This document shows positions 7,373 through 39,894 of a stretch of 61,328 bases of DNA, piece after piece. A program made the position numbers and the translations under genes. Below the pieces are notes generated by a model. It was given only the letters and a program-made list of their open reading frames with translations. It had not been told where the DNA came from and did no database searches. Within the stretch, counting starts at the first letter, position 1, and each line of letters opens with the position of its first letter. This DNA comes from an uncultured Bacteroidales bacterium (GTDB lineage: Bacteria > Bacteroidota > Bacteroidia > Bacteroidales > Bacteroidaceae): contig CADBQP010000065.1 of the NCBI GenBank assembly GCA_902796835.1, positions 1 through 61,328 of the forward strand, given 5' to 3'.

Positions 7373-7414
7373 CAAACTATCGGCCACATAGCGGGGAATA
7401 TCTCCGAGATAATT
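7373..7414. repeat. 21-bp array, two clear units, between divergent genes
   Basis: Units begin at 7373 (CAAACTATCGG...) and 7394 (GGGAATATCTCCGAG...), with the TATC cores exactly 21 bp apart. Weaker in-phase resemblance may continue to about 7456. Same family as the arrays at 11538, 19177, 21668, 27867, 34447 and 39811. Confidence 0.6.
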
Positions 7415-7460
7415 CCAATAAAAACGCCTCCCGGGTTTCGCCCGTCCAAGCTTTTTTCGC

Positions 7461-7468
7461 TACTTTTG
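7461..7468 (+). promoter_or_regulatory. -7 box for the deacetylase-glycosyltransferase operon
   Basis: TACTTTTG matches TAnnTTTG, 30 bases before ATG 7499. The -33 region has TTTC rather than TTTG. Confidence 0.5.
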
Positions 7469-7498
7469 CCGAACAACCCAACACAGCAAGTTCAAAGC

Positions 7499-8284
7499 AT
7501 GATACTACTGAGTTTCGACACCGAAGAATTCGACGTGCCACGCGAGCATGGCGTAGACTTTCCCCTGAGCCAGGGCCTCAAGGTTTCGCGCGAGGGCACC
7601 CTGCGCATACTCCAGTGCCTCAACCAACATGGAGTCAGAGCCACCTTTTTCTGCACCTCAAACTTTGCCCAGGGCGAGCCCGACGTGATGCAGCGCATCA
7701 TAGCCGAGGGACACGAAGTGGCCTGCCACGGCTGCGACCACTGGAAACCGCAGCCCGAAGACGTTTTCCGCTCCAAGGAAATCATCGAACGCCAATGTGG
7801 CATCAAAATAGCGGGCTACCGGCAGCCACGCATGTTTCCCGTGAGCGACACCGACATCAGGCAGGCCGGCTATGCCTATAACTCCTCGCTCAACCCGGCC
7901 TTCATCCCGGGGCGCTACATGCACCTGAGCGCGCCGCGCACCTACTTCTGGCGCGACGGAGTGATGCAAATACCCGCCTCGGTCACACCGTGGCTGCGGT
8001 TCCCACTGTTCTGGCTCAGCCTCCACAACCTGCCCCAGGCAATGTATCACAGCATGGTGCGACGCGTATTGAAACACGACGGATATTTCGTTACCTACTT
8101 TCACCCCTGGGAATTCTACGACCTCAAGGAGCATCCCGAATTCAAAATGCCCTTCATCATACGCAACCACAGCGGCCAGCAAATGGTGGACAGGCTCAGC
8201 CGCCTCATTGCCATGCTCAAGGAGCGCGGACACCAGTTTGTCACCTACCACGAATTCACCCTACAAAAAACGCAAGAGAAATGA
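7499..8284 (+). CDS. polysaccharide deacetylase family protein
   Basis: 261 residues from ATG 7499; the open frame extends upstream, but that stretch carries the promoter and repeat array. NodB-type (CE4) motifs are visible: SFDTEEFD at residues 5-12 (metal or catalytic Asp), RATFFCTSNFA near 48-57, HEVACHGCDH at 72-81 with the paired His 77/81, and YRQPR at 107-111. Known members remove N- or O-acetyl groups from glycans or from polyprenyl-linked amino sugars. The ATGA overlap with the next gene (8281-8284) shows translational coupling to a polyprenyl-phosphate glycosyltransferase, which favours a lipid-linked sugar as substrate, as for ArnD or NaxD. The exact sugar is unknown. Confidence 0.8.
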   Translation: MILLSFDTEEFDVPREHGVDFPLSQGLKVSREGTLRILQCLNQHGVRATFFCTSNFAQGEPDVMQRIIAEGHEVACHGCDHWKPQPEDVFRSKEIIERQCGIKIAGYRQPRMFPVSDTDIRQAGYAYNSSLNPAFIPGRYMHLSAPRTYFWRDGVMQIPASVTPWLRFPLFWLSLHNLPQAMYHSMVRRVLKHDGYFVTYFHPWEFYDLKEHPEFKMPFIIRNHSGQQMVDRLSRLIAMLKERGHQFVTYHEFTLQKTQEK

Positions 8285-9222
8285 CAAAACTTGCCATCAT
8301 ATCGCCCTGCTACAACGAAGAAGACGTGCTCGAGCAATCTGCAGCCCGACTCACCACACTCTTCGACACACTCATCGCACAGGGCAGCCTGCATGCCGAC
8401 AGCAAAATATACTTTGTCAACGACGGCAGCACCGACCGCACATGGGAAATCATCGAGCGCCTGCACAAAGACAACCACTACGTGTGTGGCATCAACCTCA
8501 CCCATAATGTAGGCCACCAAAACGCCATCATGGCCGGCATGATGACCGTGCGCCGAAATTTCGACGCCGTCATCACCATCGACGCCGACCTTCAAGACGA
8601 CCTCGGCGCCATACCCCAGATGCTGGCAGCCCACGAGGCCGGAAGCGACGTGGTATATGGTGTGAAAGTCTCGCGCAAGGCCGACCCCGTGCTCAAGCGA
8701 ATGACGGCCATGGCCTTCTACAAGTTGCAGCGCCGCATGGGAGTGAACAGCGTATATAACCATGCCGACTACCGACTGCTCAGCCACAAGGCACTCGCCA
8801 TTCTCTCGGAATTCAAGGAGCGCAACCTCTATCTGCGAGGGCTCATCCCCCTCATGGGACTGCCCAGCGCCACCGTCGACGACGCCATCAGCGAGCGCAC
8901 GGCCGGCACCTCGAAATACACCTTCTCGAAGATGATGAACCTGGCCCTCGACGGCATCACATCGTTCTCGGTGAAACCCATTTTCGCCATCTTCTATCTG
9001 GGCATTTTCTTCCTCTTCATAAGCCTGCTCATAGCCATCTATGTAGTCCATGCACTCATTGTCCACACCGCCGCGCCAGGCTGGGCTTCGCTCATGCTCT
9101 CCACGTGGCTCGTGGGCGGATTCATACTCATGAGCATCGGCATCGTGGGCATATACATCGGGAAAATATACAACGAGGTGAAGCAACGGCCGCTCTATTC
9201 CGTAGAAAGCGTGCTCGAATAG
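8281..9222 (+). CDS. family 2 glycosyltransferase, GtrB/ArnC/DPM1-like
   Basis: 313 residues. The N-terminal GT-A domain has SPCYNEEDVL (8-17), VNDGSTDRT (46-54) and the metal site DADLQDD (101-107). Two C-terminal membrane helices (about 238-260 and 275-298) are typical of enzymes that load a sugar on undecaprenyl phosphate at the inner membrane. It overlaps the deacetylase gene by four bases and is followed 33 bases later by a GtrA flippase. The set fits loading, editing and flipping of one sugar for transfer outside the membrane. Confidence 0.88.
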   Translation: MTKLAIISPCYNEEDVLEQSAARLTTLFDTLIAQGSLHADSKIYFVNDGSTDRTWEIIERLHKDNHYVCGINLTHNVGHQNAIMAGMMTVRRNFDAVITIDADLQDDLGAIPQMLAAHEAGSDVVYGVKVSRKADPVLKRMTAMAFYKLQRRMGVNSVYNHADYRLLSHKALAILSEFKERNLYLRGLIPLMGLPSATVDDAISERTAGTSKYTFSKMMNLALDGITSFSVKPIFAIFYLGIFFLFISLLIAIYVVHALIVHTAAPGWASLMLSTWLVGGFILMSIGIVGIYIGKIYNEVKQRPLYSVESVLE

Positions 9223-9255
9223 CGCAGAGAACAGACCCGCCAAGCCACACACCAC

Positions 9256-9663
9256 ATGAAGCAACGCATAAACAACCTCTGGAGGCGCTGGCACACCGAC
9301 TTCTGGCGCATCTTCCGATTTGGCATCACCGGCACCGTTTCATCGCTCGTGCACTATGCTGCCTACTGCCTCATGCTGCTCGTGGCGGGCCCCAACCTTT
9401 CCTACACCGTGGGCTATGGCGTGGGGCTCATCTGCAACTACGTGCTCACCACCTACTTCACCTTCCACGAAGCCCCCACGCGACGCAACGCCGCCGGCTT
9501 CGTCATGAGCCACGTGCTCAACTACGCCCTCGAAATAGCCCTGCTCAACCTCTTCCTGTGGGTCGGCGCAAGCCAGTGGCTCGCACCCATCCTCGTCATG
9601 GTCGTCGTGGTGCCCATCAACTTCCTCATCCTGCGCTTTGTCTTCGTGGGAAGAGAGAAATGA
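9256..9663 (+). CDS. GtrA family membrane protein (probable lipid-linked sugar flippase)
   Basis: 135 residues with four predicted membrane helices and the family pattern RFGITGTVSSLVHYAAY near residue 22, NYVLTTYFTF near 61 and a final NFLILRFVFVGRE. GtrA proteins are thought to move polyprenyl-phosphate-linked sugars to the periplasmic face. It is the last gene of the deacetylase-GT2-GtrA operon and is closed by a strong terminator. Confidence 0.88.
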   Translation: MKQRINNLWRRWHTDFWRIFRFGITGTVSSLVHYAAYCLMLLVAGPNLSYTVGYGVGLICNYVLTTYFTFHEAPTRRNAAGFVMSHVLNYALEIALLNLFLWVGASQWLAPILVMVVVVPINFLILRFVFVGREK

Positions 9664-9697
9664 AGCAACAATCCACCACCCTATCGAGCAAAAGAAC

Positions 9698-9741
9698 AAA
9701 ACGCCCAAGCCAACGAAATGGAATGTTGGCTTGGGCGTTTT
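9698..9741. terminator. bidirectional terminator between convergent genes
   Basis: Perfect 17-bp stem (9698-9714 with 9725-9741, core ACGCCCAAGCCAAC) with A-run before and T-run after, so it can stop transcription from both the GtrA gene and the convergent glycosyltransferase gene. Confidence 0.85.
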
Positions 9742-9778
9742 CTCGATTCAGCCCTTGCAGAAGGCAAGAAGCCTTTGG

Positions 9779-11497
9779 CTACCTATCCTTCTCAAACTTA
9801 TATACCTGCATTTTGCGCTTGGGAGCATCATAGAGGTGGGAAAACCGATAGCCCCATTGCGAAAATTCCTCGCAACAAAGCTCCATGTCGGGCTGACTGA
9901 TGAGCAAGAAGCCCTCGAGCGGACGCTCCTTATAGAAGTTGCCGATGCGATTGTTCAGATAGAAGTTCACCTCGAAGAAGTGCACAGGGTCGCCCTTGGC
10001 CTTCACGCCCGCGTCGATATATTCATAGAGCGCGCCCTCGCCCTGAGGAGCCACACGGTCGATTTCGGCCGCGATTTCCTTCACCGACTTTGTGTTGAGC
10101 ACGGCTGGCGTATAAACCATGTCGACGGGCAGGTAAAGGGCAAACGTCATAAGCACAATGGCCCACACCGTGCGCCGGCCCGAGCGATTATGGCGCATGG
10201 CCAGCCACCACATCAGTCCCACGGCAAACGAGAGGGCAATGAGAAGCAACTGCCAAAGGCTGCCAATGTCCTCGAGCGCACGAAGCATGCGAAGATTGTC
10301 GGCCGCATGCTTGCCGTGGAATATGCCGTCGGGCACAAGGCCGGCCCTGAGCAGCAGGTAGGCCACAAAAAGCACAACCAGCAGCACACCCAGAAAATGG
10401 GCATAAAGCCGAAGCGCACGGGGCCGGAAGTCGGCCAGCCAAAGCATGTATTTGGCAATGAAATAGGCAATGAACGGATAGATGGGCATGAGATAGACGC
10501 TGCGCTTGCTCTGCGGAATGCAATAGAACACAAAGATGGCCACAATAGCCACGAGGCTATAGAGGTCTACATCGCTCATCGTCCTCACCTTTTGCCTCAG
10601 GCGACAGGCCCAGTCGGAAGCCGGACGCTTCAATCCCTTGTAGGAAAGGAAGAAGAGCGACACCACGAGCAAGAGGTTCCAGGGAATGTAGCCGCCCAGG
10701 AGCGTCACGAAATTATACCACCACGGATTGACACACGATTCGTAGGACATCGTGCTCGTCATGCGTCCAATGTTTTCCTCATACATCAGGTCGAGAAACT
10801 CCTGGCCGCCCTGCGCATAGGCCGCCCAGAACCACAGGGCATAGGGCAGCAGCGACAGCACTCCCCAAGCCACCATGAGGGCAAAAGCCCTGAAGAAATT
10901 CACACCGCGCAGCAACAAGAAAAGCCCCATGACCAGACAGGGAATAATACTCCCCACGGGGCCCTTGGTGAGTGTGCCCACAGCCATGAGCACAATGGCC
11001 ACCAGCGGCACACCGCGCATGCCTCGTTCATACCAAGAGTAAAGACTCAGCAGCGCGCCCACGGTGGCAGCCGTCAGCACCATGTCTACACGGCAGTTGG
11101 CCCCGGCCCGATGGAGCTCAAAGCTCGTAAAAGCCACAAAGGCCGTCAGCAGGGCCAATTCCGTAGCCCTGCGGCGGGCATAGAACACGAAGACGCCCAG
11201 CGTCATCAATATCAGCGCAATGGCCGATGGCAGTCGCGATGCCCCCTCGGTCACCTCGCCACGCACCAGACTCGCAGCAGCCACACACCAGTGGAAGAAG
11301 GGCGGCTTATAGGCCATCTCGCCGCCATTGTTGCGCGAGAGAATCCAATTGCCGTCAGAGAGCATGGCCTGGGCCACCACCGACTCGCGGGGCTCGCCCT
11401 TAGTGTGATAGTCTGAAAAGCCCAGATAGGGCAAGAGAGTCAGCGCACAAACAGCCAAAAGCAGCCAGAACACGCGCTTGTCGAGCATTTTATCCAT
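9779..11497 (-). CDS. ArnT-like family 39 glycosyltransferase
   Basis: 572 residues, about a dozen membrane helices. The first periplasmic loop has the conserved acidic motif (GFSDYHTKGEPRESVVAQAM, residues 26-45), then NGGEMAYKPPFFHW, typical of PMT/ArnT glycosyltransferases that use polyprenyl-phosphate sugars to modify lipid A, glycans or proteins. The C-terminal 150 residues form a soluble domain (about 430-572). It converges on the deacetylase-GT2-GtrA operon, which could supply its donor. Regulation is separate: its own promoter overlaps a 21-bp repeat array. The acceptor is not identifiable. Confidence 0.85.
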   Translation of the reverse strand: MDKMLDKRVFWLLLAVCALTLLPYLGFSDYHTKGEPRESVVAQAMLSDGNWILSRNNGGEMAYKPPFFHWCVAAASLVRGEVTEGASRLPSAIALILMTLGVFVFYARRRATELALLTAFVAFTSFELHRAGANCRVDMVLTAATVGALLSLYSWYERGMRGVPLVAIVLMAVGTLTKGPVGSIIPCLVMGLFLLLRGVNFFRAFALMVAWGVLSLLPYALWFWAAYAQGGQEFLDLMYEENIGRMTSTMSYESCVNPWWYNFVTLLGGYIPWNLLLVVSLFFLSYKGLKRPASDWACRLRQKVRTMSDVDLYSLVAIVAIFVFYCIPQSKRSVYLMPIYPFIAYFIAKYMLWLADFRPRALRLYAHFLGVLLVVLFVAYLLLRAGLVPDGIFHGKHAADNLRMLRALEDIGSLWQLLLIALSFAVGLMWWLAMRHNRSGRRTVWAIVLMTFALYLPVDMVYTPAVLNTKSVKEIAAEIDRVAPQGEGALYEYIDAGVKAKGDPVHFFEVNFYLNNRIGNFYKERPLEGFLLISQPDMELCCEEFSQWGYRFSHLYDAPKRKMQVYKFEKDR

Positions 11498-11530
11498 AAA
11501 GAGACAGAACTTTCAGTTTACGTTGCGCCG

Positions 11531-11562
11531 CAAAGATAAGAAAAACGCCGCAGTCGGACAAA
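11531..11562 (-). promoter_or_regulatory. promoter of the ArnT-like gene, overlapping the repeat array
   Basis: Minus strand TTTG (11562-11559), 20 bp, TATCTTTG (11538-11531): a full match to the Bacteroidetes promoter. The -33 TTTG is the complement of the CAAA that opens the repeat unit at 11559. Confidence 0.75.
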
Positions 11563-11642
11563 CAATCGCGGCAGTCGTGAAAAATATCGCCGAGCCCGTT
11601 GAAACGATCGCCGAACTTTTTCAAACAACCGGCTCAACCGTT
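11538..11642. repeat. 21-bp array, five units, between divergent promoters
   Basis: Units start at 11538, 11559, 11580, 11601 and 11622 with no indels. Cores read ACGCCGCAGTCG, ATCGCGGCAGTCG, TATCGCCGAGCCCG, GATCGCCGAAC and ACCGGCTCAACCG, each preceded by an A-rich AAAC/AAAA. The array fills the gap between the ArnT-like gene and serS. Confidence 0.75.
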
Positions 11643-11687
11643 TGAAACCCCTTTTTGGAAACTAAAGCGAAATGGCAGGAAGATTTC

Positions 11688-11718
11688 TTTGCCGACTGAC
11701 ACAGAATTTCTAACTTTG
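11688..11718 (+). promoter_or_regulatory. serS operon promoter
   Basis: TTTG (11688-11691), 19 bp, TAACTTTG (11711-11718), 31 bases before the serS ATG. Confidence 0.75.
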
Positions 11719-11749
11719 CACGTTAGAACAAGAAAACACAACATATCAT

Positions 11750-13024
11750 ATGCTTACCATAAAACAAATCACCGAAAACAAGGAGGCCGTAGTTCGCGGC
11801 CTCGAGAAGAAACATTTCGCCGACGCAGCCGCCGCCATCGACCGTGTGCTCGAATACAACGACATGCGCAAAAAGGCACAGGCCGAGCTCGACCAAACCC
11901 TTTCCGAACAGAAAGTGCTGGCCAAGAGCATAGGCCAGCTCATGAAAGAAGGCCGTCGCGACGAAGCCGAGAAGGCCAAAGAGCAAGTAGCGACCCTCAA
12001 AGACCGCTCGCGCGAACTGGAAGAAAGCATGAAGCGAACCCAAGAGGAACTCACCGCCCTGCTGCTCACCATTCCCAACGTGCCCTACGACCTCGTGCCC
12101 GAAGGCGCCACAGCCGAAGACAACCTCATCGTAAAGACAGGCGGCCACGACCTGCCGCTGCCCGAGAATGCACTGCCCCACTGGGAACTGGCAAAAAAAT
12201 ACAACCTCATAGACTTCGACCTGGGCGTGAAAATCAGCGGAGCCGGCTTCCCCGTATACATAGGCTGGGGAGCACGTCTGCAAAGAGCGCTCATCAACTT
12301 CTTCCTCGACGAGGCACGCGCCGCCGGATACGTCGAAATAATGCCGCCCACCGTGGTCAACGCCGCCTCGGGCTACGGCACCGGACAACTGCCCGACAAG
12401 GAAGGACAAATGTACCACTGCAACCTCGACGACCTCTATCTCATTCCCACAGCCGAGGTGCCCGTGACAAACATCTATCGCGACGTCATCATCGACGAGC
12501 GCGACCTCCCCATCAAGAACTGCGCCTACACACAGTGTTTCCGCCGCGAGGCAGGCTCCTACGGCAAAGACGTGCGCGGACTGAACCGGCTCCACGAATT
12601 CTCAAAAGTAGAACTCGTGCGCATCGACAAGCCCGAGCACTCCGAGCAGTCACACCAGGAAATGCTGGCCCACGTAGAAGGCCTGCTCCAAAAGCTCGAA
12701 CTGCCCTACCGCATCTTGCGGCTCTGCGGCGGCGACATGAGCTTCACGGCAGCCATCTGCTACGACTTCGAAGTATATAGCGAAGCACAGAAACGCTGGC
12801 TCGAAGTGAGCTCCGTCTCCAACTTCGACACCTATCAGGCCAACCGCCTGCACTGCCGCTATCGCAATGCCGACAAGAAAATAGAGCTGTGCCACACCCT
12901 CAACGGATCGGCACTGGCACTGCCCCGCATCGTGGCCGCACTGCTCGAAGACTTCCAGACACCCGACGGCATACGCATACCAAAAGCCCTGCAACCCTAC
13001 ATGGGCACCGACATCATCAGATAA
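11750..13024 (+). CDS. serS: serine--tRNA ligase
   Basis: 424 residues, the normal length. The N-terminal 110 residues are the antiparallel coiled-coil arm that holds the tRNA-Ser variable arm (MLTIKQITENKEAVVRGL...). The class II catalytic core follows, with motif 2 around FRREAGSYGKDVRGLNRLHEF and motif 3 near LNGSALALPRIVAALLE. It charges tRNA-Ser with serine in the cytoplasm. It leads a probable operon serS-ruvX-def-TPR with gaps of 13, 4 and 6 bases. Confidence 0.98.
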   Translation: MLTIKQITENKEAVVRGLEKKHFADAAAAIDRVLEYNDMRKKAQAELDQTLSEQKVLAKSIGQLMKEGRRDEAEKAKEQVATLKDRSRELEESMKRTQEELTALLLTIPNVPYDLVPEGATAEDNLIVKTGGHDLPLPENALPHWELAKKYNLIDFDLGVKISGAGFPVYIGWGARLQRALINFFLDEARAAGYVEIMPPTVVNAASGYGTGQLPDKEGQMYHCNLDDLYLIPTAEVPVTNIYRDVIIDERDLPIKNCAYTQCFRREAGSYGKDVRGLNRLHEFSKVELVRIDKPEHSEQSHQEMLAHVEGLLQKLELPYRILRLCGGDMSFTAAICYDFEVYSEAQKRWLEVSSVSNFDTYQANRLHCRYRNADKKIELCHTLNGSALALPRIVAALLEDFQTPDGIRIPKALQPYMGTDIIR

Positions 13025-13037
13025 AACCACCCAAGTC

Positions 13038-13451
13038 ATGGCACGACTGCTCTCCATCGACTATGGCAAACGCCGCTGCGGAATAGCCGTGAGCGACCCA
13101 CTCAAACTCATTGCCGGCGGACTATGCACCGTGGCCACCCACGAACTCACAAACTTCCTGAAAGACTATTTTCAGAAAGAAGACGTAGAAGCCGTGGTGC
13201 TGGGGCTGCCCACACAAACCAGCGGACAAGCCTCGGAAAACCAGCAGCGAGTGAGGCAATTTGCAGCCAGCTTCACAAAGCAGTTTCCCCACATACCGCT
13301 CCACTTCTACGACGAGCGCTTCACCAGTGTCATAGCCCATCGCGCCATGCTCGAAGGCGGACTCAAAAAGAGCCGGCGCCAAGACAAGGCACTCGTTGAC
13401 GAAATCAGCGCATGCATCATACTCGAAGACTACATGCAACACCACCAATAA
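13038..13451 (+). CDS. ruvX: RuvX/YqgF Holliday junction resolvase-like protein
   Basis: 137 residues with the RNase H-like YqgF fold: [17 protein letters not shown] at residues 4-20 with the first catalytic Asp, VLGLPT near 54, and YDERFTSV near 91. In E. coli YqgF/RuvX takes part in 16S rRNA 5'-end processing; a junction-resolving role has also been proposed. It sits 13 bases after serS and 4 bases before def. Confidence 0.93.
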
Positions 13452-13455
13452 ACAC

Positions 13456-14016: not shown

Positions 14017-14022
14017 CACACC

Positions 14023-19176: not shown

Positions 19177-19177
<1 letters not shown>

Positions 19178-19239
19178 AAACTGTTGAGCCAACTCTTAAA
19201 ACTATCTCCGAGCTAATTTCAACAAGCTCGGAGATAGTT
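19177..19239. repeat. 21-bp array, three units, between convergent genes
   Basis: Units start at 19177 (GAAACTGTTGAGCC...), 19198 (AAAACTATCTCCGAG...) and 19219 (TCAACAAGCTCGGAG...), spaced exactly 21. The first unit begins on the last base of the lacZ stop codon. Confidence 0.75.
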
Positions 19240-19241: not shown

Positions 19242-19264
19242 CTTTTAGGAAGCTCACAAAAAAA

Positions 19265-19312
19265 AGGCCGTGCCAACGGAATGTCTGATTTCGGACATCG
19301 TTAGCACGGCCT
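19265..19312 (-). terminator. ackA terminator
   Basis: Stem AGGCCGTGC (19265-19273) with 19304-19312, extended by AACG/CGTT and an inner ATGTC/GACAT pairing. On the minus strand the stem is followed by a run of T, 17 bases after the ackA stop. Confidence 0.8.
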
Positions 19313-21667: not shown

Positions 21668-21793
21668 CAAACAAACGGCAGACTATTTTAAAATATCTCG
21701 GAGACAATTTGAACTATCGCCGCGCTATTTTTAACTATCGGCTCGATTGTTTTTGCGCCAGTGCACACTATTTAAAAATATATGCCTATATTT
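21668..21793. repeat. 21-bp array, four clear and two weak units, between pta and pyrH
   Basis: Units start at 21668, 21689, 21710 and 21731 (cores ACGGCAGACTATTT, TATCTCGGAGACAATT, TATCGCCGCGCTATTT, TATCGGCTCGATTGTT), with weaker in-phase units at 21752 and 21773. The last one runs into the pyrH -7 box. The 320-base gap between pta and pyrH holds this array and the two divergent promoters, and no gene. Confidence 0.7.
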
Positions 21794-27866: not shown

Positions 27867-27950
27867 AAAACTATCGGGCCGACTGTTTCAACAACTGCCG
27901 CGATCGTAAAAAATATCTCCGAGCTAATTTGAATTAGCTCGGAGATATTT
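27867..27950. repeat. 21-bp array, four units, between convergent genes
   Basis: Units start at 27867 (AAAACTATCGGGCCG...), 27888 (TCAACAACTGCCGCG...), 27909 (AAAAATATCTCCGAG...) and 27930 (TGAATTAGCTCGGAG...), all 21 apart. The third shares 13 consecutive bases (TATCTCCGAGCTA) with the unit at 19198. Confidence 0.75.
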
Positions 27951-33231: not shown

Positions 33232-33271
33232 AGGAATGTTTGAAAATATAGGGTTTAATGAGGCGAATGCC

Positions 33272-34033
33272 TTAGGGTTGCGTTTCGCCTTCGATGTATC
33301 TTTCCATGAACAGGTGCTCTCCGTCGAAGACGGCATAGGTGAAAAGCCTCACCCAATCGCCCAGAACGAGCATGCGTGCCTCGTGAGGCAGTTCAAGGTC
33401 GAGTTCTATGTGGCGGTGGCCGAAGATGAAATAGTTCACGTCGGGATGGGTTTCGAGGTAGCCCTTGGCATAGACCACGAGGTCTTCCTTGTCTTCACCG
33501 AAATAGTCGGGTTCGGCCGGTTCATGCTTCATGCGGCTGTGTTTGGCCCAATTCAGCCCGAAGTCTACGCCCCATCGCGGATGCAAGGCCGCAAAAAGGC
33601 GCTGACAGACGGGGTTGTGGAACATGCTTCTGAGAAAAAGGAAGCGGCGGTCGCGCGAACCGAGTCCGTCGCCGTGGGCCAGATAGAACACCTTGCCGTA
33701 GAGTTCCACTACGGAATCCTTGCGGTGCATCACGACTCCGCACTCGCGCTCCAGATAGTCGTGCATCCACATGTCGTGGTTGCCGGTAAAATAATGCACC
33801 TCAACACCGCTGTCGGTGAGCTCGCTGATTTTTCCGAGGAAGCGCGTAAAGCCTTTTGGCACCACGTTCTTGTATTCGAACCAGAAGTCGAACATGTCGC
33901 CGAGCATATAGACGGCGGCGGCACTGCGCTTGATGTTGTCGAGAAAGTTGACGAGCCTGCGTTCCTGCATGCGCCGATGCTTCAGCGCGCGGCAACCCAG
34001 GTGGGCATCCGAAAGGAAATATATGTTCTTCAT
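33272..34033 (-). CDS. lpxH: UDP-2,3-diacylglucosamine diphosphatase (LpxH-type)
   Basis: 253 residues from ATG 34033. Metallophosphoesterase motifs occur in order: SDAHLGC, GDMFDFWFE, GNHDMW, LAHGDGLG and FGHRHIE. Together with the size they fit the LpxH step of lipid A synthesis, removal of UMP from UDP-diacylglucosamine. A related YbbF-type esterase is the main alternative. Confidence 0.85.
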   Translation of the reverse strand: MKNIYFLSDAHLGCRALKHRRMQERRLVNFLDNIKRSAAAVYMLGDMFDFWFEYKNVVPKGFTRFLGKISELTDSGVEVHYFTGNHDMWMHDYLERECGVVMHRKDSVVELYGKVFYLAHGDGLGSRDRRFLFLRSMFHNPVCQRLFAALHPRWGVDFGLNWAKHSRMKHEPAEPDYFGEDKEDLVVYAKGYLETHPDVNYFIFGHRHIELDLELPHEARMLVLGDWVRLFTYAVFDGEHLFMERYIEGETQP

Positions 34034-34085
34034 GCCTTTGTCGTTTTGTATGTTTGGCGTTGCTTGTTTCGTATGCGGCCGTCGG

Positions 34086-34406
34086 CTACATGAAGCCAAG
34101 GTCGAGTTTGGCTTCTTCGCTCATCATGTCTTTATGCCATTCGGGTTCGAACACGAGGTTGACTTTTACGCTCTCGATGCCTTCGATTCCCTCGAGCTTG
34201 AGTCGCACGTCCTCCATGATGAAGTCGGCTGCCGGACAGTTGGGCGCCGTCATGGTCATGTCCACCTCGAGGCTGGCGTCGTCGCGCAGGTCAATCTTGT
34301 AGATGAGGCCAAGGTTGTAGACGTCGACAGGGATTTCGGGGTCGAACACCGTTTTGAGCACCTCGACGATGCGTTCCTCTAACTTTTCTTTTTCGGCTGT
34401 TGTCAT
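34086..34406 (-). CDS. MIP18/DUF59 family iron-sulfur assembly protein (SufT-like)
   Basis: 106 residues with the family core VFDPEIPVDVYNLGLIYKI near 20-38 and MTAPNCPAADFI with the conserved Cys near 56. Such proteins help mature iron-sulfur proteins. A possible promoter (TAATTTTC, 34430-34423 on the minus strand) and the 34447 repeat array lie just upstream. Confidence 0.88.
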   Translation of the reverse strand: MTTAEKEKLEERIVEVLKTVFDPEIPVDVYNLGLIYKIDLRDDASLEVDMTMTAPNCPAADFIMEDVRLKLEGIEGIESVKVNLVFEPEWHKDMMSEEAKLDLGFM

Positions 34407-34446
34407 TCGGTTATACTATGTGGAAAATTATTCTTAGGAGCTTCTT

Positions 34447-34509
34447 GAAACTGTTGGCTCAACTCTTTTTCCTGTTGGCTCAACTTTTTTTCTTCCTGGC
34501 CCGGTCCTA
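34447..34509. repeat. 21-bp array, near-perfect tandem pair plus a weaker unit
   Basis: The stretches 34451-34471 and 34472-34492 (CTGTTGGCTCAACT plus a pyrimidine run) differ at one base in 21. In the family frame the units start at 34447 and 34468, and a weaker one at 34489 ends over the radC stop codon. This is the least diverged array of the window. Confidence 0.7.
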
Positions 34510-35199
34510 CAGCTTTCCTTCGTCTGCATAACTATAGAAACGGCCTTCAGAAATGATAAGGTGGTCGATGACTCTGATGTTGAGCAGTTCGGCCGCCTGC
34601 TTGATGCGCTGCGTGAGTTTATCGTCCTCGAGGCTCGGCCTGAGACCGCCGCCGGGATGATTATGGCAGAGGGCTATGCACGTGGCCCCGGCAAGAAGAG
34701 CCTCTTTGAGCAACACGCGCACATCGACCGCCGTGCTCGAAATGCCGCCGCGGCTGACGAGTTTCGAGTCGATGAACCTCAGGTTTTGCGTGAGCAACAT
34801 GACATGGAATTCCTCAATGGGAAGGTCTTGCATGCGCTCTATGTAGAACTGAAAGATGTCGGCCGACGAGGCTATCTGGGGCTTCTGCGAGTCCATCTCT
34901 GAGGCTCTGCGCCTTCCGAACTCGCATGCTGCCATAATCGTCACGGCCTTGGCCTGCCCGATGCCTTTATACTGGCAGAGCTCGGCCACTGTCATGCGCC
35001 CCAGCCTCTTCAGGCTTTCGCGGCAGTCGCTCAGCAAGCGCCGCGTCAGGTCCACGGCGCTTTCGCTGGGGCTGCCGCTTCCTATGAGTATGGCCAGCAG
35101 CTCGGCCGACGAGAGTGCCTGAGGCCCCTGAGCCATGAGTTTCTCGCGCGGGCGGTCGGCTTCGTTCCACTGTGTGATGCTGAGTTTTTCGGCGCTCAT
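34507..35199 (-). CDS. radC: RadC/MPN domain protein
   Basis: 230 residues. The N-terminal helix-hairpin-helix-like half (LCQYKGIGQAKA near 75-84) precedes the JAB/MPN domain with metal ligands H179 and H181 in CHNHPGG and Asp192. The usual HNHPSG is HNHPGG here. Despite the name, a role in repair is not established for the family. Its start overlaps the stop of the glycosyltransferase gene as ATGA. Confidence 0.92.
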   Translation of the reverse strand: MSAEKLSITQWNEADRPREKLMAQGPQALSSAELLAILIGSGSPSESAVDLTRRLLSDCRESLKRLGRMTVAELCQYKGIGQAKAVTIMAACEFGRRRASEMDSQKPQIASSADIFQFYIERMQDLPIEEFHVMLLTQNLRFIDSKLVSRGGISSTAVDVRVLLKEALLAGATCIALCHNHPGGGLRPSLEDDKLTQRIKQAAELLNIRVIDHLIISEGRFYSYADEGKL

Positions 35200-36185
35200 T
35201 TGTAGAAATTCTTTTTGAAGGCCTCAAACTCATCGCGCCCTCTCACCATGCGCTGCCACCAGGCACGCAAAAAGCCCGTGCCGTAGCCCAACAGCTGCAC
35301 AAACGAAGCGGCTACAGCCCGCACACCTACTGCTACACTGCCCTCGCGCAGCGAGGCGTCGGCAAAGATTAACGCGGCAAAGAGCGCCAGCGGAAGCCAG
35401 AACCAGGGGCAGAAAAATCCCAAAACGAGCAACAGGACACAGCCCACGGTGAAGACGGCGGGCAGAAGGTGCACCAGTTTCAAAGTTCCGGGATGGCGCT
35501 TCGTCAGATTGATGCGCGCGATGCCTGAATTGTGCACCTGCTTGAAAAACTGGCGCAGGTTGGCCCTTCGCTTGTGCCACACCCACGCCTCGGGAAAGAG
35601 CCTGCACGAATAGCCGCCCTTGAAAATGCGTGTACTGAAGTCGATGTCTTCGCCAAACCGCATCTTCGAAAAGCCGCCAAGCGCATTATAGACTTCGCGA
35701 CGCACACCCATATTGAACGAACGCGGATAGAATTTGTCCATCTTGCGCTTTCCGCCGCGTATGCCGCCCGTGGTGAAAAACGAGGTCATGGCATAGTTAA
35801 TCGCCTTCTGCATGGGGCTGAACGAGGGATGGGCCCTGTCGGGGCCGCCAAAGGCATCGCATGGCGAAGCGCTTAGTTCGCGCTCCACTTCGAGCAGATA
35901 GCCTTCGGGCACCACCACGTCGCTGTCGAGAATGAGCACATAGTCGGCCGCGGAACGCTCCACGCCATAATTGCGCGTCTGGCCCGGACCACTGTTGGCC
36001 TTCGTGAAATAACGGATGGCGAGTTTGTCGGCATAGCGTGCCACCACGTCGGCACAGGGCACACTGCTTCCGTCTTCCACAACCACGACGTCGAAATCGG
36101 TAAAGCGCTGCGTGCAAAGACTTGCAAGGAGCTCGTCGACTTCGTCGGGACGATTGTAGACAGGAATGACAAAAGAATACTTCAT
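35196..36185 (-). CDS. family 2 glycosyltransferase with C-terminal membrane helices
   Basis: 329 residues from ATG 36185 (MKYSFVIPVYNRPDE). The GT-A domain has VVEDGSS near 45, LDSDVVVP near 92 and FGEDIDFSTRI near 184. Three or four hydrophobic segments follow (about 245-305), so it is anchored in the inner membrane. Such enzymes build surface polysaccharide or glycolipid; the product is unknown. Confidence 0.88.
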   Translation of the reverse strand: MKYSFVIPVYNRPDEVDELLASLCTQRFTDFDVVVVEDGSSVPCADVVARYADKLAIRYFTKANSGPGQTRNYGVERSAADYVLILDSDVVVPEGYLLEVERELSASPCDAFGGPDRAHPSFSPMQKAINYAMTSFFTTGGIRGGKRKMDKFYPRSFNMGVRREVYNALGGFSKMRFGEDIDFSTRIFKGGYSCRLFPEAWVWHKRRANLRQFFKQVHNSGIARINLTKRHPGTLKLVHLLPAVFTVGCVLLLVLGFFCPWFWLPLALFAALIFADASLREGSVAVGVRAVAASFVQLLGYGTGFLRAWWQRMVRGRDEFEAFKKNFYK

Positions 36186-36192
36186 AACAGCG

Positions 36193-36200
36193 CGAAGATA
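36193..36200 (-). promoter_or_regulatory. possible -7 box for the glycosyltransferase-radC pair
   Basis: Minus-strand TATCTTCG (36200-36193), one base from TAnnTTTG, just 7 bases before the ATG, so the message would be nearly leaderless. The same variant precedes folP. Confidence 0.35.
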
Positions 36201-36205
36201 TAAAA

Positions 36206-36237
36206 AAAAGCCGATAGGCAAACGTGCCGCGGCTTTT
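36206..36237 (-). terminator. terminator after the DUF4834 gene
   Basis: Stem AAAAGCCG (36206-36213) with 36230-36237 and an inner GGCA/TGCC pairing; on the minus strand it is followed by eight T. It separates the psd-pssA-DUF4834 operon from the glycosyltransferase gene. Confidence 0.75.
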
Positions 36238-36248
36238 ATTATGCTTTT

Positions 36249-36482
36249 TCAGTCGGTCACTTCTTCAAAGTCCACATATTTTCCTTTCGACTTGTCGAAA
36301 TGCGGCTCTGCAGGCGCTCCGGGTTTCATGCTCGGGCCTTCAGCTTCGGCGCCGGGCATGCCTTCGGGGGAAAACGGGGTGCCAAAAAGGCTTCTCACCC
36401 AGTTAAAAACTCCCAGGGCAAGGGCCACTACAAAAAAGAGGGCGAAAAAAACTACCGAAAACAGGCAACCGAGTAACTGCAT
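36249..36482 (-). CDS. small membrane protein, DUF4834-like
   Basis: 77 residues: one N-terminal membrane helix (about 5-27), a juxtamembrane FNWVRSLFG segment and a hydrophilic tail ending KGKYVDFEEVTD. It resembles the DUF4834 proteins found after phosphatidylserine synthase in Bacteroidetes. The function is unknown; the position suggests a link with lipid synthesis. Confidence 0.65.
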   Translation of the reverse strand: MQLLGCLFSVVFFALFFVVALALGVFNWVRSLFGTPFSPEGMPGAEAEGPSMKPGAPAEPHFDKSKGKYVDFEEVTD

Positions 36483-36512
36483 GGCTCAATCAGAATAGCT
36501 AATGAAACACAT

Positions 36513-37214
36513 TTAGTACCTGCTGCCGCGTCGGCGCTTCGCTGTGAGGGCCATAATTACGGAAACTACCACATAGAGTAACACCACAAGCCAGATGCCA
36601 TCAACGCGCAGCCACACCAAGATTGCTGCCGACACGAGCAAAAAGCCATAGCGCACACCGTTGCCCTGAAGGCCAAAGTTTTTGAACTTGAGCGCAAACA
36701 TCGGAATTTCGGAAACAAGCAGCAGGCACGACAAGGCCACACCTATTAATATTATATAGGCCATTGTCTTGCTATCGGTCCACTCGGGGCGCGACATGAG
36801 CAGGCTGGCCCAAAACAAGGCGTTTGCCGGTGTGGGCAAACCCAGGAAGGTGGTTTGCTGGCGGGTGTCGAGGTTGAACTTGGCGAGGCGCAGCGCCGAG
36901 AAGGCCGCCATCACGAGGGAACTGACTGCCACCCAATGGGGCACCGCGCCGAGCTCCTTCACAAAAGTATAGACCATGACGCTCGGGGCCAGCCCAAAGG
37001 TTATTACGTCGGCCAGTGAGTCGAGTTCCTTGCCTATGGGCGACGACACACCCAAGAGGCGGGCCACCATGCCGTCGAAGAAATCGAAAATGGCGCCAAG
37101 CACAATGAAGGCAAGTGCCATGTCGGCTTGTCCGCCCTTGGTGGCAAGTATCACGGCTACGGCTCCGCAGAGCAGGTTGCAGCACGTAATGGCATTGGGA
37201 ATGTGTTTAATCAT
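36513..37214 (-). CDS. pssA: CDP-diacylglycerol--serine O-phosphatidyltransferase
   Basis: 233 residues, an integral membrane CDP-alcohol phosphotransferase. The complete active-site motif is present: D47-G48, A51-R52, G61, D65 and D69. It makes phosphatidylserine, the substrate of the psd product encoded 46 bases upstream. Confidence 0.95.
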   Translation of the reverse strand: MIKHIPNAITCCNLLCGAVAVILATKGGQADMALAFIVLGAIFDFFDGMVARLLGVSSPIGKELDSLADVITFGLAPSVMVYTFVKELGAVPHWVAVSSLVMAAFSALRLAKFNLDTRQQTTFLGLPTPANALFWASLLMSRPEWTDSKTMAYIILIGVALSCLLLVSEIPMFALKFKNFGLQGNGVRYGFLLVSAAILVWLRVDGIWLVVLLYVVVSVIMALTAKRRRGSRY

Positions 37215-37260
37215 GATGTTCTAAGGTTTTCTGCGAAGACTGTGTTCGCCTGGTTTTTGT

Positions 37261-37956
37261 CTATGGCTTGAGGCGCGCCACCACGGTTTGATTGCCCACC
37301 GTGGCTTGGCCAAACTCTACGTTTACTACGCTGTTGAGCGGCAGGAAGAGGTCGACGCGCGAACCAAACTTGATGAAGCCCAGATGTTCGTCGATGAAGC
37401 AGTGGTCGTCGGGCCGGGCATAGGTGACGATGCGGCGTGCCATGGCACCCGCTACCTGGCGCACGAGCACCTCCTGGCCGCCTGGGGTTTCTATCAGCAC
37501 GTCGGCGCGTTCGTTCTCGTTGCTTGCCTTGGGCAGCCAGGCTTTATAGAAATTTCCGTTGCGGTGGTTCACGTTCTTGACTACGCCCTCTACGGGAAAC
37601 CAGTTGGCATGGACGTTTGTGAGCGACATGAAGATGGAAATCATGAGCCGGCGGTCGTGAAAGTATTCGTTTTCGTCGACCTCTTCGACCACTACCACTT
37701 TTCCGTCGGCCGGAGCCACCACCGTGTTTTCGGTTTCGTCGTCGAAAACACGGATGGGACAGCGAAAGAAGTTGACTATGATTAAAAATACGAGCACGCT
37801 GATTGCCGCCACTGCGTAGAAGGCCCAAGGGGCATTGGGCTTCAGGGCATAATAGGTGGCCACATTGAGCGCCAAGAGTGCTAAGAAACTAAGTATGAGT
37901 GTGTTTGTACCTTCGCGGTGCAAACGTATTTTTTTCAATCGTTTTCCTCTTGCCAT
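37261..37956 (-). CDS. psd: phosphatidylserine decarboxylase
   Basis: 231 residues, the short class of the enzyme. Two N-terminal hydrophobic segments (about 21-60), then the catalytic domain with [14 protein letters not shown] and the self-cleavage site FGSR, in which Ser199 should become the pyruvoyl group. It converts phosphatidylserine to phosphatidylethanolamine at the inner membrane. First gene of psd-pssA-DUF4834. Confidence 0.95.
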
Positions 37957-37978
37957 TTTTAAGGGTGATTTACAGATG

Positions 37979-38010
37979 CAAATGTAGGAATAATTTTTAT
38001 AACTGCCAAA
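37979..38010 (-). promoter_or_regulatory. psd operon promoter
   Basis: Minus-strand TTTG (38010-38007), 20 bp, TACATTTG (37986-37979), a full consensus match directly after the cdaA stop codon and 22 bases before the psd start. Confidence 0.75.
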
Positions 38011-38019
38011 CCATTTTTA

Positions 38020-38784
38020 TCAAGACCACTTTTCGCGCAAGAAACTTTCGAGTTCGTCGCTCGAGAGTCGCAGTTTGAAATGCCCGCTCTCGGCCACTGA
38101 AATGCCGCCCGTCTCTTCGCTCACGATGATGGCCAGGCAGTCGCTTTTTTCGGTCACTCCCAGTGCCGAGCGATGGCGCAGGCCGAGGGATTTCGGTATG
38201 TCGGCCGAGTGGGACACGGGCAGTATGCAGCCGGCAGCGCGCAGGCGCCGATGAGAGATGACGAGGGCGCCGTCGTGAAGGGGCGAGTTCTTGAAAAATA
38301 TGTTTTCGATTAGGCGCTGGTTCACGTTGGCGTTGATGACCTCGCCCGTCTTTATTTCGTCCGACAGGCTCACTCCGCGCTCTATGACGATGAGTGCTCC
38401 CACCTTCTGCTTGCTCATGCTCAGACAGGCCATGACGATGGGCATGATGACTTCGCTGCCGGGCGACTGCTTGTCGCCATGGCGAAACATGCGCGAAAAA
38501 GTACTGAAGAAGCGGCGTTTGCCGATGGTGGAAAAGAAGTTGCGGATTTCTTCTTGAAAGATGATGACGATGGCCAGCACACCGATGTTCATGAGCTGGT
38601 CCATGATGCCGCCCAGCAGCCGCATGTTGAACACGTGGGTGACGAGCAGCCACACCATGACGAAGATGATGATGCCCGAAAACACGTTGGCCGAGCGCGT
38701 TTCGCGCATCAGGCTGTAGATGTAGTAGAGCAGGAAGGACACCAGCAGGATGTCGATGATATCGGTCAGTCCGAAACTAAACAT
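38020..38784 (-). CDS. cdaA: diadenylate cyclase CdaA
   Basis: 254 residues. Three membrane helices in the first 80 residues, then the DAC domain with the DGA motif (171-173, SPLHDGALV) and the RHR motif (203-205, GLRHRSALG), both intact. It makes cyclic di-AMP from two ATP. In Firmicutes the partner is cdaR-glmM; here the upstream gene is folP, 53 bases away, and no CdaR-like gene follows. Confidence 0.94.
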   Translation of the reverse strand: MFSFGLTDIIDILLVSFLLYYIYSLMRETRSANVFSGIIIFVMVWLLVTHVFNMRLLGGIMDQLMNIGVLAIVIIFQEEIRNFFSTIGKRRFFSTFSRMFRHGDKQSPGSEVIMPIVMACLSMSKQKVGALIVIERGVSLSDEIKTGEVINANVNQRLIENIFFKNSPLHDGALVISHRRLRAAGCILPVSHSADIPKSLGLRHRSALGVTEKSDCLAIIVSEETGGISVAESGHFKLRLSSDELESFLREKWS

Positions 38785-38837
38785 GTGGGTCTATGGTTTT
38801 TCTATCTGCCGCCTTCGGTTGGCGGAGATGCTTAGCG

Positions 38838-39686
38838 TTATTCTATGTCTTGGGGATGGTTCACGGCCTGCCACAGGGCTATGGCTTCGCGGGCGGCTCC
38901 TGCGTCGTGCACGCGCAAGATGCTGGCTCCGCGCTCGAGGGCCATGACGTGGAGTGCCGTAGTGGCCGAGAGGGCCTCGTCGGGCTTAATTTTGAGGAGT
39001 TTGGTAAGCATGCTCTTGCGCGAGACTCCCACCAGCACGGGGCAGCCCGTTTCGCCCATGTAGTCGAGGTGGTGCATGAGCTCGTAGTTCTGTCGCAGGT
39101 TCTTGCCGAAACCGAAGCCGGGGTCGACAATCACATCGGCCACGCCCTGGCTGCGAAGTTCGGAAAGGCGGCTCGCGAAAAAGAGCATCACGCTACGCAC
39201 CACGTCGTCGTCGCCACTCTCGGCCGTCGGTGGCAGGGGCAACCGAGGCGAGTGGGTGAGCACATAGGGCACGCGCAAACTGGCCATCATGCCAAACATG
39301 GCGGCATCCATCTGCCCGCCCGAGACGTCGTTGACCATGCCGACACCATATTCCTCCACGCTCATGCGCGCCACGTCGGCCCTGAACGTGTCGACCGACA
39401 CGATGGCCTCGGGCCACTCGCTCACGACTATAGGCAAGGCCCATCGCAGGCGCTCCATTTCCTCAGCCTCTGTGGCCAGAACACCGCCGGGGCGCGTGGA
39501 GCAGGCTCCCACGTCGACAAAGGTGGCCCCTTCGCTGCGCAGCTGCGCCACGCGGCTGCGAAGGTCCGACTCGGTGAATACACGACTGCCGGCATAGAAG
39601 GAATCGGGCGTAGCGTTGAGAATGCCCATCACCCGAGGCGTGGACAGACTGAGCAGACGACCCTGACAATTGAGCGTGAAATTCAT
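38838..39686 (-). CDS. folP: dihydropteroate synthase
   Basis: 282 residues from ATG 39686 (MNFTLNCQGRLLSL); the longer frame crosses the promoter. Pterin-site motifs are RVMGILNATPDSFYAGSR, DVGACSTRPGG, VSVDTFRADVA, VNDVSGG, and later DPGFGFGKN and VGVSRKSML. It joins p-aminobenzoate to the pterin in folate synthesis. It probably shares a transcript with cdaA. Confidence 0.96.
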   Translation of the reverse strand: MNFTLNCQGRLLSLSTPRVMGILNATPDSFYAGSRVFTESDLRSRVAQLRSEGATFVDVGACSTRPGGVLATEAEEMERLRWALPIVVSEWPEAIVSVDTFRADVARMSVEEYGVGMVNDVSGGQMDAAMFGMMASLRVPYVLTHSPRLPLPPTAESGDDDVVRSVMLFFASRLSELRSQGVADVIVDPGFGFGKNLRQNYELMHHLDYMGETGCPVLVGVSRKSMLTKLLKIKPDEALSATTALHVMALERGASILRVHDAGAAREAIALWQAVNHPQDIE

Positions 39687-39707
39687 GCGGCAAAGCATTT
39701 TGTGCTG

Positions 39708-39715
39708 CGAAGATA
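39708..39715 (-). promoter_or_regulatory. folP-cdaA promoter -7 box
   Basis: Minus-strand TATCTTCG (39715-39708), one mismatch to TAnnTTTG, 21 bases before the folP ATG. Confidence 0.4.
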
Positions 39716-39810
39716 GTGAAAAAACCGAAAGATAGAGCAACTTGCCGCATATTTTCTCGTTGTTCGGACAAACAGCAGGCGCCTGGGCCACTTCTTGCTC
39801 CAACCTTTGA

Positions 39811-39894
39811 GAAACGAGCGCCGAGATATTTTAAACTATCGCGGCAGTTGTGGAAACTATCGCGGCGATAGTTTCTACGCCCGCGGCGGTTGTG
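39811..39894. repeat. 21-bp array, four units, between folP and murF
   Basis: Units start at 39811 (GAAACGAGCGCCGAG...), 39832 (TAAACTATCGCGGCAG...), 39853 (GAAACTATCGCGGCGATAG...) and 39874 (TCTACGCCCGCGGCGG...). The third is almost a perfect palindrome. A fifth, shifted by one base, may start near 39894. Confidence 0.75.

Follow-up and report, generated by a model that had tools for sequence, protein, structure and literature searches.

Two-turn-phased palindromic arrays in the genome of an uncultured Bacteroidales bacterium and a candidate link to HU-wHTH proteins

Arrays in the window

The window, meaning the whole stretch of 61,328 nucleotides analysed here from the draft genome of an uncultured Bacteroidales bacterium (the source genome, G000), holds seven arrays of a 21-bp unit and one array of a second, 22-bp family (Table 1), and the genes flanking such arrays are ordinary, unrelated, housekeeping ones (names assigned by eye). 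All seven sites of the original prediction carry the unit in register when the window is read in 21-base slices. Once the profile had been retrained on 439 kb of the source genome, five of the seven stood as strong arrays and two graded as weak, one of which (34447-34509) fell below the cut and is absent among the arrays called after retraining. The array beginning at 21668 had been drawn too long, to 21793; positions 21752-21793 are not units and its true end is 21751. The period-22 palindromes at 50498-50585 had been missed in the earlier reading. At about 19258-19312, between the 19177 array and the acetate kinase gene, inspection by eye shows an independent hairpin that has an A/T run.

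Table 1. Palindromic arrays of the window, with unit scores in bits and the grade reached with the retrained profile
Feature	Position	Strand	Setting	Units	Grade
Weak 21-bp-family member	7352..7414	.	Divergent gap	3.3, 7.2, 17.3; single clear unit 7394-7414	Weak
21-bp palindrome array	11538..11642	.	Divergent gap preceding serS-like gene (named by eye)	4 clear units from 11559: 14.1, 19.8, 17.9, 12.3; weak unit at 11538	Strong (11559-11642)
21-bp array	19177..19239	.	Convergent gap, beta-galactosidase gene and acetate kinase gene	3 units: 12.4, 24.0, 23.6	Strong
21-bp array	21668..21751	.	Divergent gap	4 units: 4.5, 24.3, 23.6, 22.5	Strong
21-bp array	27867..27950	.	Convergent gap	4 units	Strong
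Weak array, GTTGGCTCAAC core type	34447..34509	.		2 units: 13.6, 8.3 (window-trained profile)	Weak
21-bp array	39811..39894	.	Divergent gap preceding Mur ligase gene	3 strong units and 1 weak; exact consensus palindrome at 39854-39874	Strong
Second family, 22-bp even-centred palindrome array, TCACCRYGGTGA core	50498..50585	.		4 units	

The unit had been described as nearly palindromic, a wording that can be strengthened: across 159 distinct units the excess of matching pairs within a unit peaks centrally (z 9.5 for positions 10-14 and 8.8 for 11-13), and the 21-bp unit is a true palindrome whose central bases covary. Adjacent units are just 61% identical, yet the register is still kept by weak outer units, with 37 of the 41 weak flanking units of at least 6 bits in register and not one indel between strongly diverged neighbours. 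Identical adjacent units also occur and point to recent 21-bp duplications (C37:144034, for example), and arrays of the family begin with A runs and finish with T runs. A symmetric profile trained on the window gave 41 peaks of at least 8 bits there, compared with 19 when the window was reversed and 6-20 apiece in 20 Markov sequences, but this count comes from the training data, so that the real test is provided by held-out contigs.

Occurrence across the source genome and its relatives

The held-out sample comprised three large contigs of the source genome chosen non-randomly (C37, C52 and C48; 378 kb), which contained 69, 41 and 22 hits of at least 12 bits, while their reversed versions gave 3, 2 and 3. 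Neighbouring hits no more than 70 bp apart lay exactly 21 bp from one another in 76 of 77 cases, the remaining distance being 42, and the pattern AAACTATCGCSGCGATAGTTT with up to three mismatches was found at 51 places in the genome as opposed to 0 for its reverse. The prediction of real, phased arrays thus survived the genome scan that had been proposed to refute it, in both number and spacing. With short weak gene calls discarded, 44 of 45 multi-unit arrays proved intergenic; they occupy 14 convergent, 15 divergent and 15 tandem gaps, at 2.04, 1.27 and 0.83 arrays per kb, respectively. The overall density is 45 arrays per 439 kb, or about one per 10 kb, a little below the one per 8 kb first estimated. 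The family is thus dispersed, tandem and palindromic, and falls within a wider class of arrays with a unit period of 21-23 bp.

That class extends to related genomes. Of 34 sampled congeners, 22 carry tandem arrays with a period of 21-23 bp, many of which are palindromic and which are mostly built of different words. The 34 congeners together gave 61 arrays of this period per 1.34 Mb and 12 genomes of 12 other families 1 per 0.39 Mb, the congener sample being non-random in that the stretches of G009, G011 and G022 were picked at pattern hits and several others lie around acetate kinase genes; with G009, G011 and G022 removed, 47 arrays remained in 1.14 Mb. The period histogram is restricted to 21-23, and a dyad z above 2 was reached by 34 of 62 arrays of period 21-23 versus 5 of 34 at other periods, a clear dyad being missing in the other 28 of the 62; these counts take in genic (4/44) and non-palindromic arrays. 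An exact step of 21 bp is accordingly a property of the first family and not a general law, the second family keeping 22 and the relatives 21-23. The words of the arrays turn over between species and the step stays at 21-23 bp, which suggests that geometry is kept by selection and sequence is free to change.

The second family of the source genome has a period of 22 bp, with five arrays in 439 kb and dyad z values of 2.0-3.6. The words of the array at 50498-50585 recur upstream of the only HU-wHTH gene of this genome, on contig C61, where a TTTCACCACGGTGAGAAAGTTT array stands at -220 of the 194-aa gene; the 22-bp family thus fits the proposed class of HU-wHTH-linked phased arrays both as a palindrome of period 21-23 and by having its own word upstream of an HU-wHTH gene.

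Arrays upstream of HU-wHTH genes

Here HU-wHTH denotes long PF18291 proteins, namely an HU domain followed by a winged helix. All nine aligned long proteins match PF18291, their C-terminal parts give weak winged-helix matches (best HTH_11, 2.5e-4), and a PDB sequence search returned HU/IHF chains together with Lrp-type winged helices. An array of period 21-23 bp (z of at least 5.5, no more than 350 bp upstream) precedes 31 of 42 HU-wHTH genes, close paralogues included (9/9 in the discovery set and 22/33 in the follow-up), compared with 58 of 891 other genes (p about 2e-25), a control set that itself includes three HU-wHTH genes. Two further HU-wHTH genes with less than 150 bp of upstream sequence were excluded. 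None of the 20 HU-only PF18291 rows, which represent 19 genes because G011 C138 was counted twice, has such an array, and HU-only proteins were rejected as the binder. The association was seen in one genome of another family (G059, 7/9 genes) and not in a second (G047, 0/3), as well as at 3/3 named homologues from Bacteroides finegoldii and Phocaeicola massiliensis and 2/3 genes on phage-labelled faecal scaffolds; the B. finegoldii homologue is WP_195399327.1. A -7-like box, TAnnTTTG, lies close to where the array begins in 6 of 31 cases against 7 of 314 control windows. Promoter-like strings of this kind and the HU-HIG proteins also suggest a Bacteroidales host.

Upstream and dispersed arrays can share a word. 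In five genomes (G000 through its second family, G019, G020, G027 and G036), ten arrays carry one word in both settings with at least 15 of 16 bases in common. Other figures speak against the link: only 11 of 59 dispersed arrays match the upstream arrays of their own genome best, where about 3 would be expected by chance; the association is weak between whole genomes, an HU-wHTH gene having been found in 14 of 22 congeners with arrays and 4 of 12 without (p 0.15); and the correlation between protein and array similarity is weak (rho 0.10, 465 pairs). The zero count in G047 and the 28 arrays that show no clear dyad weigh in the same direction. The source genome, a draft that is 94% complete, has a single full-length HU-wHTH match, whose array is of the 22-bp family, leaving the 21-bp family unmatched; no regulator adjoins the 21-bp-family arrays among the listed neighbours, and profiles built from either half of HU-wHTH, run against 1467 called proteins, returned the known HU-wHTH genes, a 42-aa fragment and a short HU gene, with no new candidate for this family. 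The word of the 21-bp-family array expected upstream of such a gene is AACTATCG.

A proposed binding system and its alternatives

A strict phase combined with a loose sequence is best explained by a protein that binds at constant helical intervals, and on balance we lean towards reading the arrays, scattered as they are through the genome, as phased sites for dimeric proteins of the HU-wHTH type. The original prediction of a binding protein can be taken as far as a nameable candidate kind with its own array upstream, the part still missing being a member for the 21-bp family in the source genome; from these patterns we infer binding, cooperativity, repression and any role for the dispersed copies. 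In such a system the two winged helices of a dimer would read the two arms of the palindrome and the HU part would keep the dimer on the DNA, with adjacent dimers touching every two helical turns, a distance of 21-23 bp that would depend on the protein. Every HU-wHTH protein would read a word of its own. The array just upstream of its gene would then serve as an autoregulatory operator, and the copies in gaps across the chromosome could form protein-coated stretches between genes, with a nucleoid-type or insulating role. The protein of the 21-bp family would be of this kind too, one not found in the G000 assembly. HU-type proteins are textbook packagers of bacterial DNA with little sequence preference, and an HU branch in which every member has a winged helix and a phased palindrome array to itself would package DNA sequence-specifically and evolve fast. 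An unexplained dispersed repeat would thereby become a testable protein-site system in which cooperative binding at a two-turn step can be addressed directly.

Several known systems resemble parts of this arrangement. The long proteins match HU-HIG (Pfam PF18291, 'HU domain fused to wHTH, Ig, or Glycine-rich motif'), a Bacteroidetes expansion that Burroughs and co-workers reportedly predicted in 2017 to recognize invading DNA. HU-HIG records give no DNA site, and the Pfam entry of this large family names domains only; what is new is the phased array in front of the gene, together with its copies elsewhere, and these offer candidate sites. A search of open-licence papers, which is not proof of absence, found no description of HU-wHTH sites. 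The ARG boxes of ArgR and the met boxes of MetJ are likewise tandem palindromes on one helical face, bound cooperatively and often autoregulatory, by proteins of other folds whose sites are confined to regulons. The likeness lies in the tandem phased palindromes, cooperative binding being putative here; unlike those sites, the present arrays flank unrelated housekeeping genes and their neighbours are not conserved (3/11 versus 60/142), and a regulon of particular genes was rejected on these grounds. The earlier statement that neither terminator nor operator alone explains the arrays stands for the dispersed copies. According to PMC4596501, the BrickBuilt repeats of Porphyromonas gingivalis occupy 19 loci between genes, where a 23-nt unit is repeated in tandem; one of them, BrickBuilt_14, lies between PGN_0871 (-) and PGN_0872 (+), the latter a PF00216 (HU-type) DNA-binding protein; they thus share the tandem intergenic form and, for one copy, an adjoining HU-type gene. 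Many BrickBuilt copies have a leader, a tail and IS5-like terminal repeats, and their indels run at 0-6%; our arrays showed none of these features. HU-wHTH binding may explain the 22-23 nt tandem repeats of Porphyromonas. A broader and more speculative version, which we hold only tentatively, is a private code in which HU-wHTH paralogues with their own words seed hundreds of two-turn-phased intergenic arrays for species-specific chromosome coating, nucleoid organization or self-DNA marking, word and winged helix changing together and BrickBuilt and its like being other words.

Of the rival explanations, the most durable, though unlikely, is that the arrays are selfish REP- or MITE-like repeats multiplied by a transposase or ectopic copying, with protein binding incidental or absent. 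The turnover of words between species and insertion between ordinary genes would fit, as would the 57 and 47 exact bp shared by arrays at separate loci (the 47 by the 27867..27950 array and one on contig C52), the likeness stopping at the array edges; BrickBuilt arrays, too, lie within a MITE according to PMC4596501. Like the arrays, REP/BIME elements with RAYT are, according to PMC3733652, small, species-specific, multi-copy extragenic palindromes, and they differ in that the source genome lacks a PF01797 gene and the arrays keep a strict two-turn tandem phase. The Y1 transposase PF01797 (RAYT), present in 37 of 61 genomes searched, has 0 matches in the source genome and does not track the arrays, being present in array-less G004 and absent from array-rich G011, G013, G016, G019 and G027, and was rejected as the driver. 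Target duplications or inverted repeats of 7 bp or more were not found in the flanks, where direct and inverted repeats of 7-10 bp are at chance level (6-bp direct repeats number 25 versus 18.5 ± 3.2), and selfish spread leaves unexplained both the phase at 61% identity and the placement before HU-wHTH genes. Searches for mobile carriers gave one match among genome contigs, in a Lachnospiraceae MAG, and two among viral contigs, each of the three being a single unit; one array searched against plasmids and phages gave zero matches.

We also consider it rather improbable that the 21-bp family is read by some other host protein, for instance a nucleoid protein or repressor with a different fold, with the HU-wHTH rule applying to other families only. 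This would account for the 21-bp family in G000, G011 and G016, where a matching HU-wHTH gene is missing (related 21-bp arrays occur in G011 and G016, yet HU-wHTH hits are zero), but the architecture and step are those of HU-wHTH arrays and the three assemblies are drafts with completeness of 94, 86 and 90%. Several HU-wHTH genes elsewhere lie at contig edges (G022 C265, G030 C260, G031 C74), where an upstream array would break assembly.

Transcribed stem-loops acting as terminators, RNA stabilizers or sponges are a very unlikely explanation, which would draw on the foldability of all units, the A-run starts and T-run ends and the greater density in convergent gaps. Against it, the symmetry continues through the centre, where the hairpin loop would lie (pair 11-13), G-T pairs show no excess on the sense strand in tandem gaps (40 G-T versus 56 A-C mismatched pairs), 15 arrays sit in divergent gaps, a distinct hairpin already adjoins the 19177 array, and the window has no Rfam match at gathering score. 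The central symmetry, the mismatch counts and that separate hairpin led to its rejection as the main reading, and neither a hairpin constraint on the transcribed strand nor a gene-end position, as in intrinsic terminators, was found.

That slippage and palindrome correction left functionless palindromic minisatellites is scarcely credible. The recent duplications among identical neighbours would fit, and quasi-palindrome correction could bring central pairs into agreement, but periods held to 21-23, rarity in other families and the lack of indels between strongly diverged neighbours speak against it. Between adjacent units, inverted matches at lag 1 number 1463 (1383 expected) and direct matches 1444 (1386 expected); the direct matches rise as much as the inverted ones, so hairpins between units are inseparable from duplication.

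Register and symmetry of the 21-bp arrays

All seven places between positions 7373 and 39894 of the window for which the original prediction had described 21-bp arrays show a register of 21 bases, five of them strongly and two weakly, and the observation is confirmed. The symmetric consensus of this family, TAAACTATCGCCGCGATAGTT, is an odd-centred palindrome, and AAACTATCGCSGCGATAGTTT, allowing up to three mismatches, is found at 51 places in the 2.0-Mb genome, against none for the reversed pattern. On three contigs held out from profile training (378 kb), matches of at least 12 bits number 69, 41 and 22, compared with 3, 2 and 3 in reversed sequence, and 76 of the 77 neighbour distances of up to 70 bp there are exactly 21, the remaining one being 42. 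In 439 kb, including the window, we count 45 arrays of two to six units each; 44 lie between called genes. They occupy 44 of the 167 gaps of at least 63 bp (convergent, 14/33; divergent, 15/34; tandem, 15/100). By eye, units with a GGCTC/GAGCC core often stand at one end of an array, for example at C37:82051 and C52:17816, and GCSGC and TCSGA cores tend toward opposite ends.

Adjacent units are on average only 61% identical (129 pairs), yet a scan of 150 bp either side of strong units that presupposed no register places 37 of its 41 further peaks (at least 6 bits) in the 21-bp register, with one peak off by +1, one by -2 and two by -9; spacing is therefore kept much more tightly than the bases, the strict phase with loose sequence that had been proposed. 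Fixed spacing is expected if a bound protein sets it. It would also follow from array growth by whole-unit copying, a process that does occur, as identical neighbouring units attest. The ARG and met boxes are known examples of palindromes in tandem to which proteins bind in phase.

In the set of 159 distinct units, agreement between the palindrome's two halves exceeds the level set by column composition, chiefly near the centre: pair z scores, inflated by common ancestry of unit types, are 9.5 (positions 10-14), 8.8 (11-13), 4.2 (9-15) and 3.3 (5-19), and at most 2.5 elsewhere. Because a hairpin could not pair position 11 with 13, the central symmetry looks like a constraint on double-stranded DNA. 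In tandem gaps, the mismatched pairs of the sense strand comprise 40 G-T and 56 A-C (p = 0.13), the opposite of the trace expected from an RNA stem.

Arrays in relatives and HU-winged-helix genes

Tandem-repeat scans of 1.34 Mb from 34 congeners give 61 arrays with a period of 21-23, spread over 22 genomes (4.6 per 100 kb); in 12 genomes, one from each of 12 other families (394 kb), there is a single such array. Hardly any array has a period of 19-20 or 24-25. Many of the relatives' words are palindromic, with mostly unrelated sequences, and of 62 arrays with a period of 21-23, 34 have more dyad symmetry than shuffled columns (z > 2), versus 5 of 34 of other periods. The genome of the window, G000, has a second family of period 22 (five arrays in 439 kb). 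A different repeat class, of heptamer-like or 16-mer tandem arrays with periods of 7, 14, 16 and multiples, occupies gaps of some congeners.

Arrays, words and side-by-side PF18291 matches in G000 and its relatives
Feature	Genome	Location	Period or word
Second-family array	G000	window 50498-50585	22; core TCACCRYGGTGA
Example word	G036		TTAATTTGTACAAACTAAGCC
Example word	G019		TTCATGGCCATGAA
Example word	G020		GCAATATATATTGC
Example word	G027		AAATTGCATWATGCAATTT
Heptamer-like / 16-mer arrays	G012	L120, L124, L052	
Heptamer-like / 16-mer arrays	G033	L128	
Heptamer-like / 16-mer arrays	G009	L046, near 13587	
Side-by-side weak PF18291 matches	G000	C40:5743-6312	
Side-by-side weak PF18291 matches	G011	C66:16069-16650	
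Side-by-side weak PF18291 matches	G016	C1:157719-158284	

Of the DNA-binding families tested across relatives, PF18291 (HU-HIG) has strong matches in most congeners and seldom in other families. Three PF18291 genes in the initial stretches had an array directly upstream; after 20 further neighbourhoods were added and the set was split by protein length, a 21-22-bp array preceded all nine genes for long proteins (194-210 aa) and none of the 14 for shorter ones. All nine long proteins match PF18291, described as 'HU domain fused to wHTH, Ig, or Glycine-rich motif', their C-terminal parts match winged-helix models weakly, and sequence matches in the PDB are to HU/IHF over the first part and to Lrp-type regulators over the second, so that the long form joins an HU domain to a C-terminal winged helix (HU-wHTH).

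By a fixed rule that takes the best lag between 15 and 40 within 350 bp upstream and counts as success a lag of 21-23 with z of at least 5.5, 31 of 42 HU-wHTH genes succeed (discovery genes, 9/9; later ones, 22/33) versus 58 of 891 called genes, and HU-only PF18291 genes succeed in 0 of 20 rows (19 genes). Seven of nine succeed in G059, from another family, and none of three in G047. With 400 bp of upstream sequence from database records, success is 3/3 for plasmid-labelled records of Bacteroides finegoldii and Phocaeicola massiliensis and 2/3 for phage-labelled faecal scaffolds, the best lag being 22 in all six. In 6 of 31 cases a -7-like TAnnTTTG lies close to where the array starts, versus 7 of 314 control windows, which is what an autoregulated promoter would have and is suggestive only. 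The BrickBuilt element of P. gingivalis is a 23-nt tandem repeat, intergenic at 19 loci, with one copy between a minus-strand gene and PGN_0872 (+), in the upstream gap of the latter, which is annotated as a PF00216 DNA-binding protein (PMC4596501). This copy would fit the rule of an array upstream of an HU-wHTH gene, if PGN_0872 is one.

Several further features were noted. On Bacteroides finegoldii plasmid 11 (L284), a second 22-bp array with another word lies at 3123-3183, downstream of the HU-wHTH gene and directly before a gene for an ATP-binding protein. Four of the five HU-wHTH genes in G066 stand no more than 620 bp from position 1 of their contigs (C136, C92, C151 and C16). G000 contigs C1 and C11 encode HU-only PF18291 proteins lacking both winged helix and upstream array. 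Weak PF18291 matches also occur side by side, inside or beside longer open frames (see table), which we take to be possible tandem-HU proteins of the CCDC81 type.

Candidate proteins for the dispersed arrays

Ten dispersed arrays agree, at no fewer than 15 of 16 bases, with an upstream array in the genome that carries them: G000 has five (second family), G036 has two, and G019, G020 and G027 have one each; for three of the five in G000 one foreign upstream array also agrees. For 11 of 59 dispersed arrays, where chance would give about 3, no foreign upstream array matches as well as one from the same genome. Dispersed arrays thus share upstream words in part; the other 48, including 13 listed of the 21-bp family, are not explained by the HU-wHTH genes found. 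Words agree at a mean of 11.75 of 14 bases for protein pairs at least 50% identical in the C-terminal part (eight pairs) and 9.6 for those below 30% (394 pairs). Like proteins tend toward like words, but with a weak overall correlation (rho = 0.10), and some 80%-identical HU-wHTH pairs in G059 carry differing words.

The sole full-length HU-wHTH gene of G000, on contig C61, carries the second-family word upstream; a protein for the 21-bp family, with its roughly 45 arrays in 439 kb, was not found there. G011 and G016 have related 21-bp arrays and no HU-wHTH match. G004, a complete congener, is a natural absence case: 160 kb of it holds no array with a period of 21-23, and the genome has no full-length HU-wHTH match and no strong PF18291 match (best, 1.9e-8). 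HU-wHTH genes occur in 14 of 22 genomes with arrays versus 4 of 12 without (p = 0.15, under very uneven sampling), and at the genome level the two are only weakly linked. We lean slightly towards the view that the HU-wHTH gene of the 21-bp family is missing from the drafts, its highly repeated upstream array breaking assembly (HU-wHTH genes adjoin contig starts, within 120 bp, in G022, G030 and G031); alternatively, a protein of another kind serves this family. The earlier proposal of phased protein binding is thus supported and extended to HU-wHTH proteins for several families, though not yet for the 21-bp family itself, and binding, cooperativity and a function of the dispersed copies are what we infer.

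Dispersal of array pieces

Arrays at separate loci share exact identity of up to 57 and 47 bp, and the likeness stops at the array edges, which shows that multi-unit pieces have spread. Neither target duplications nor inverted repeats of at least 7 bp are seen in the array flanks; a Y1 transposase was not found in G000, nor does its occurrence across relatives track the arrays. Genes adjoining the arrays look ordinary, and array neighbours are not conserved more often than others, array-side genes of relatives having an array-side G000 orthologue in 3 of 11 cases versus 60 of 142 for other genes. An exception that points to short-term stability is provided by the close relatives G008 and G020, in which an array of the same word precedes the same gene.
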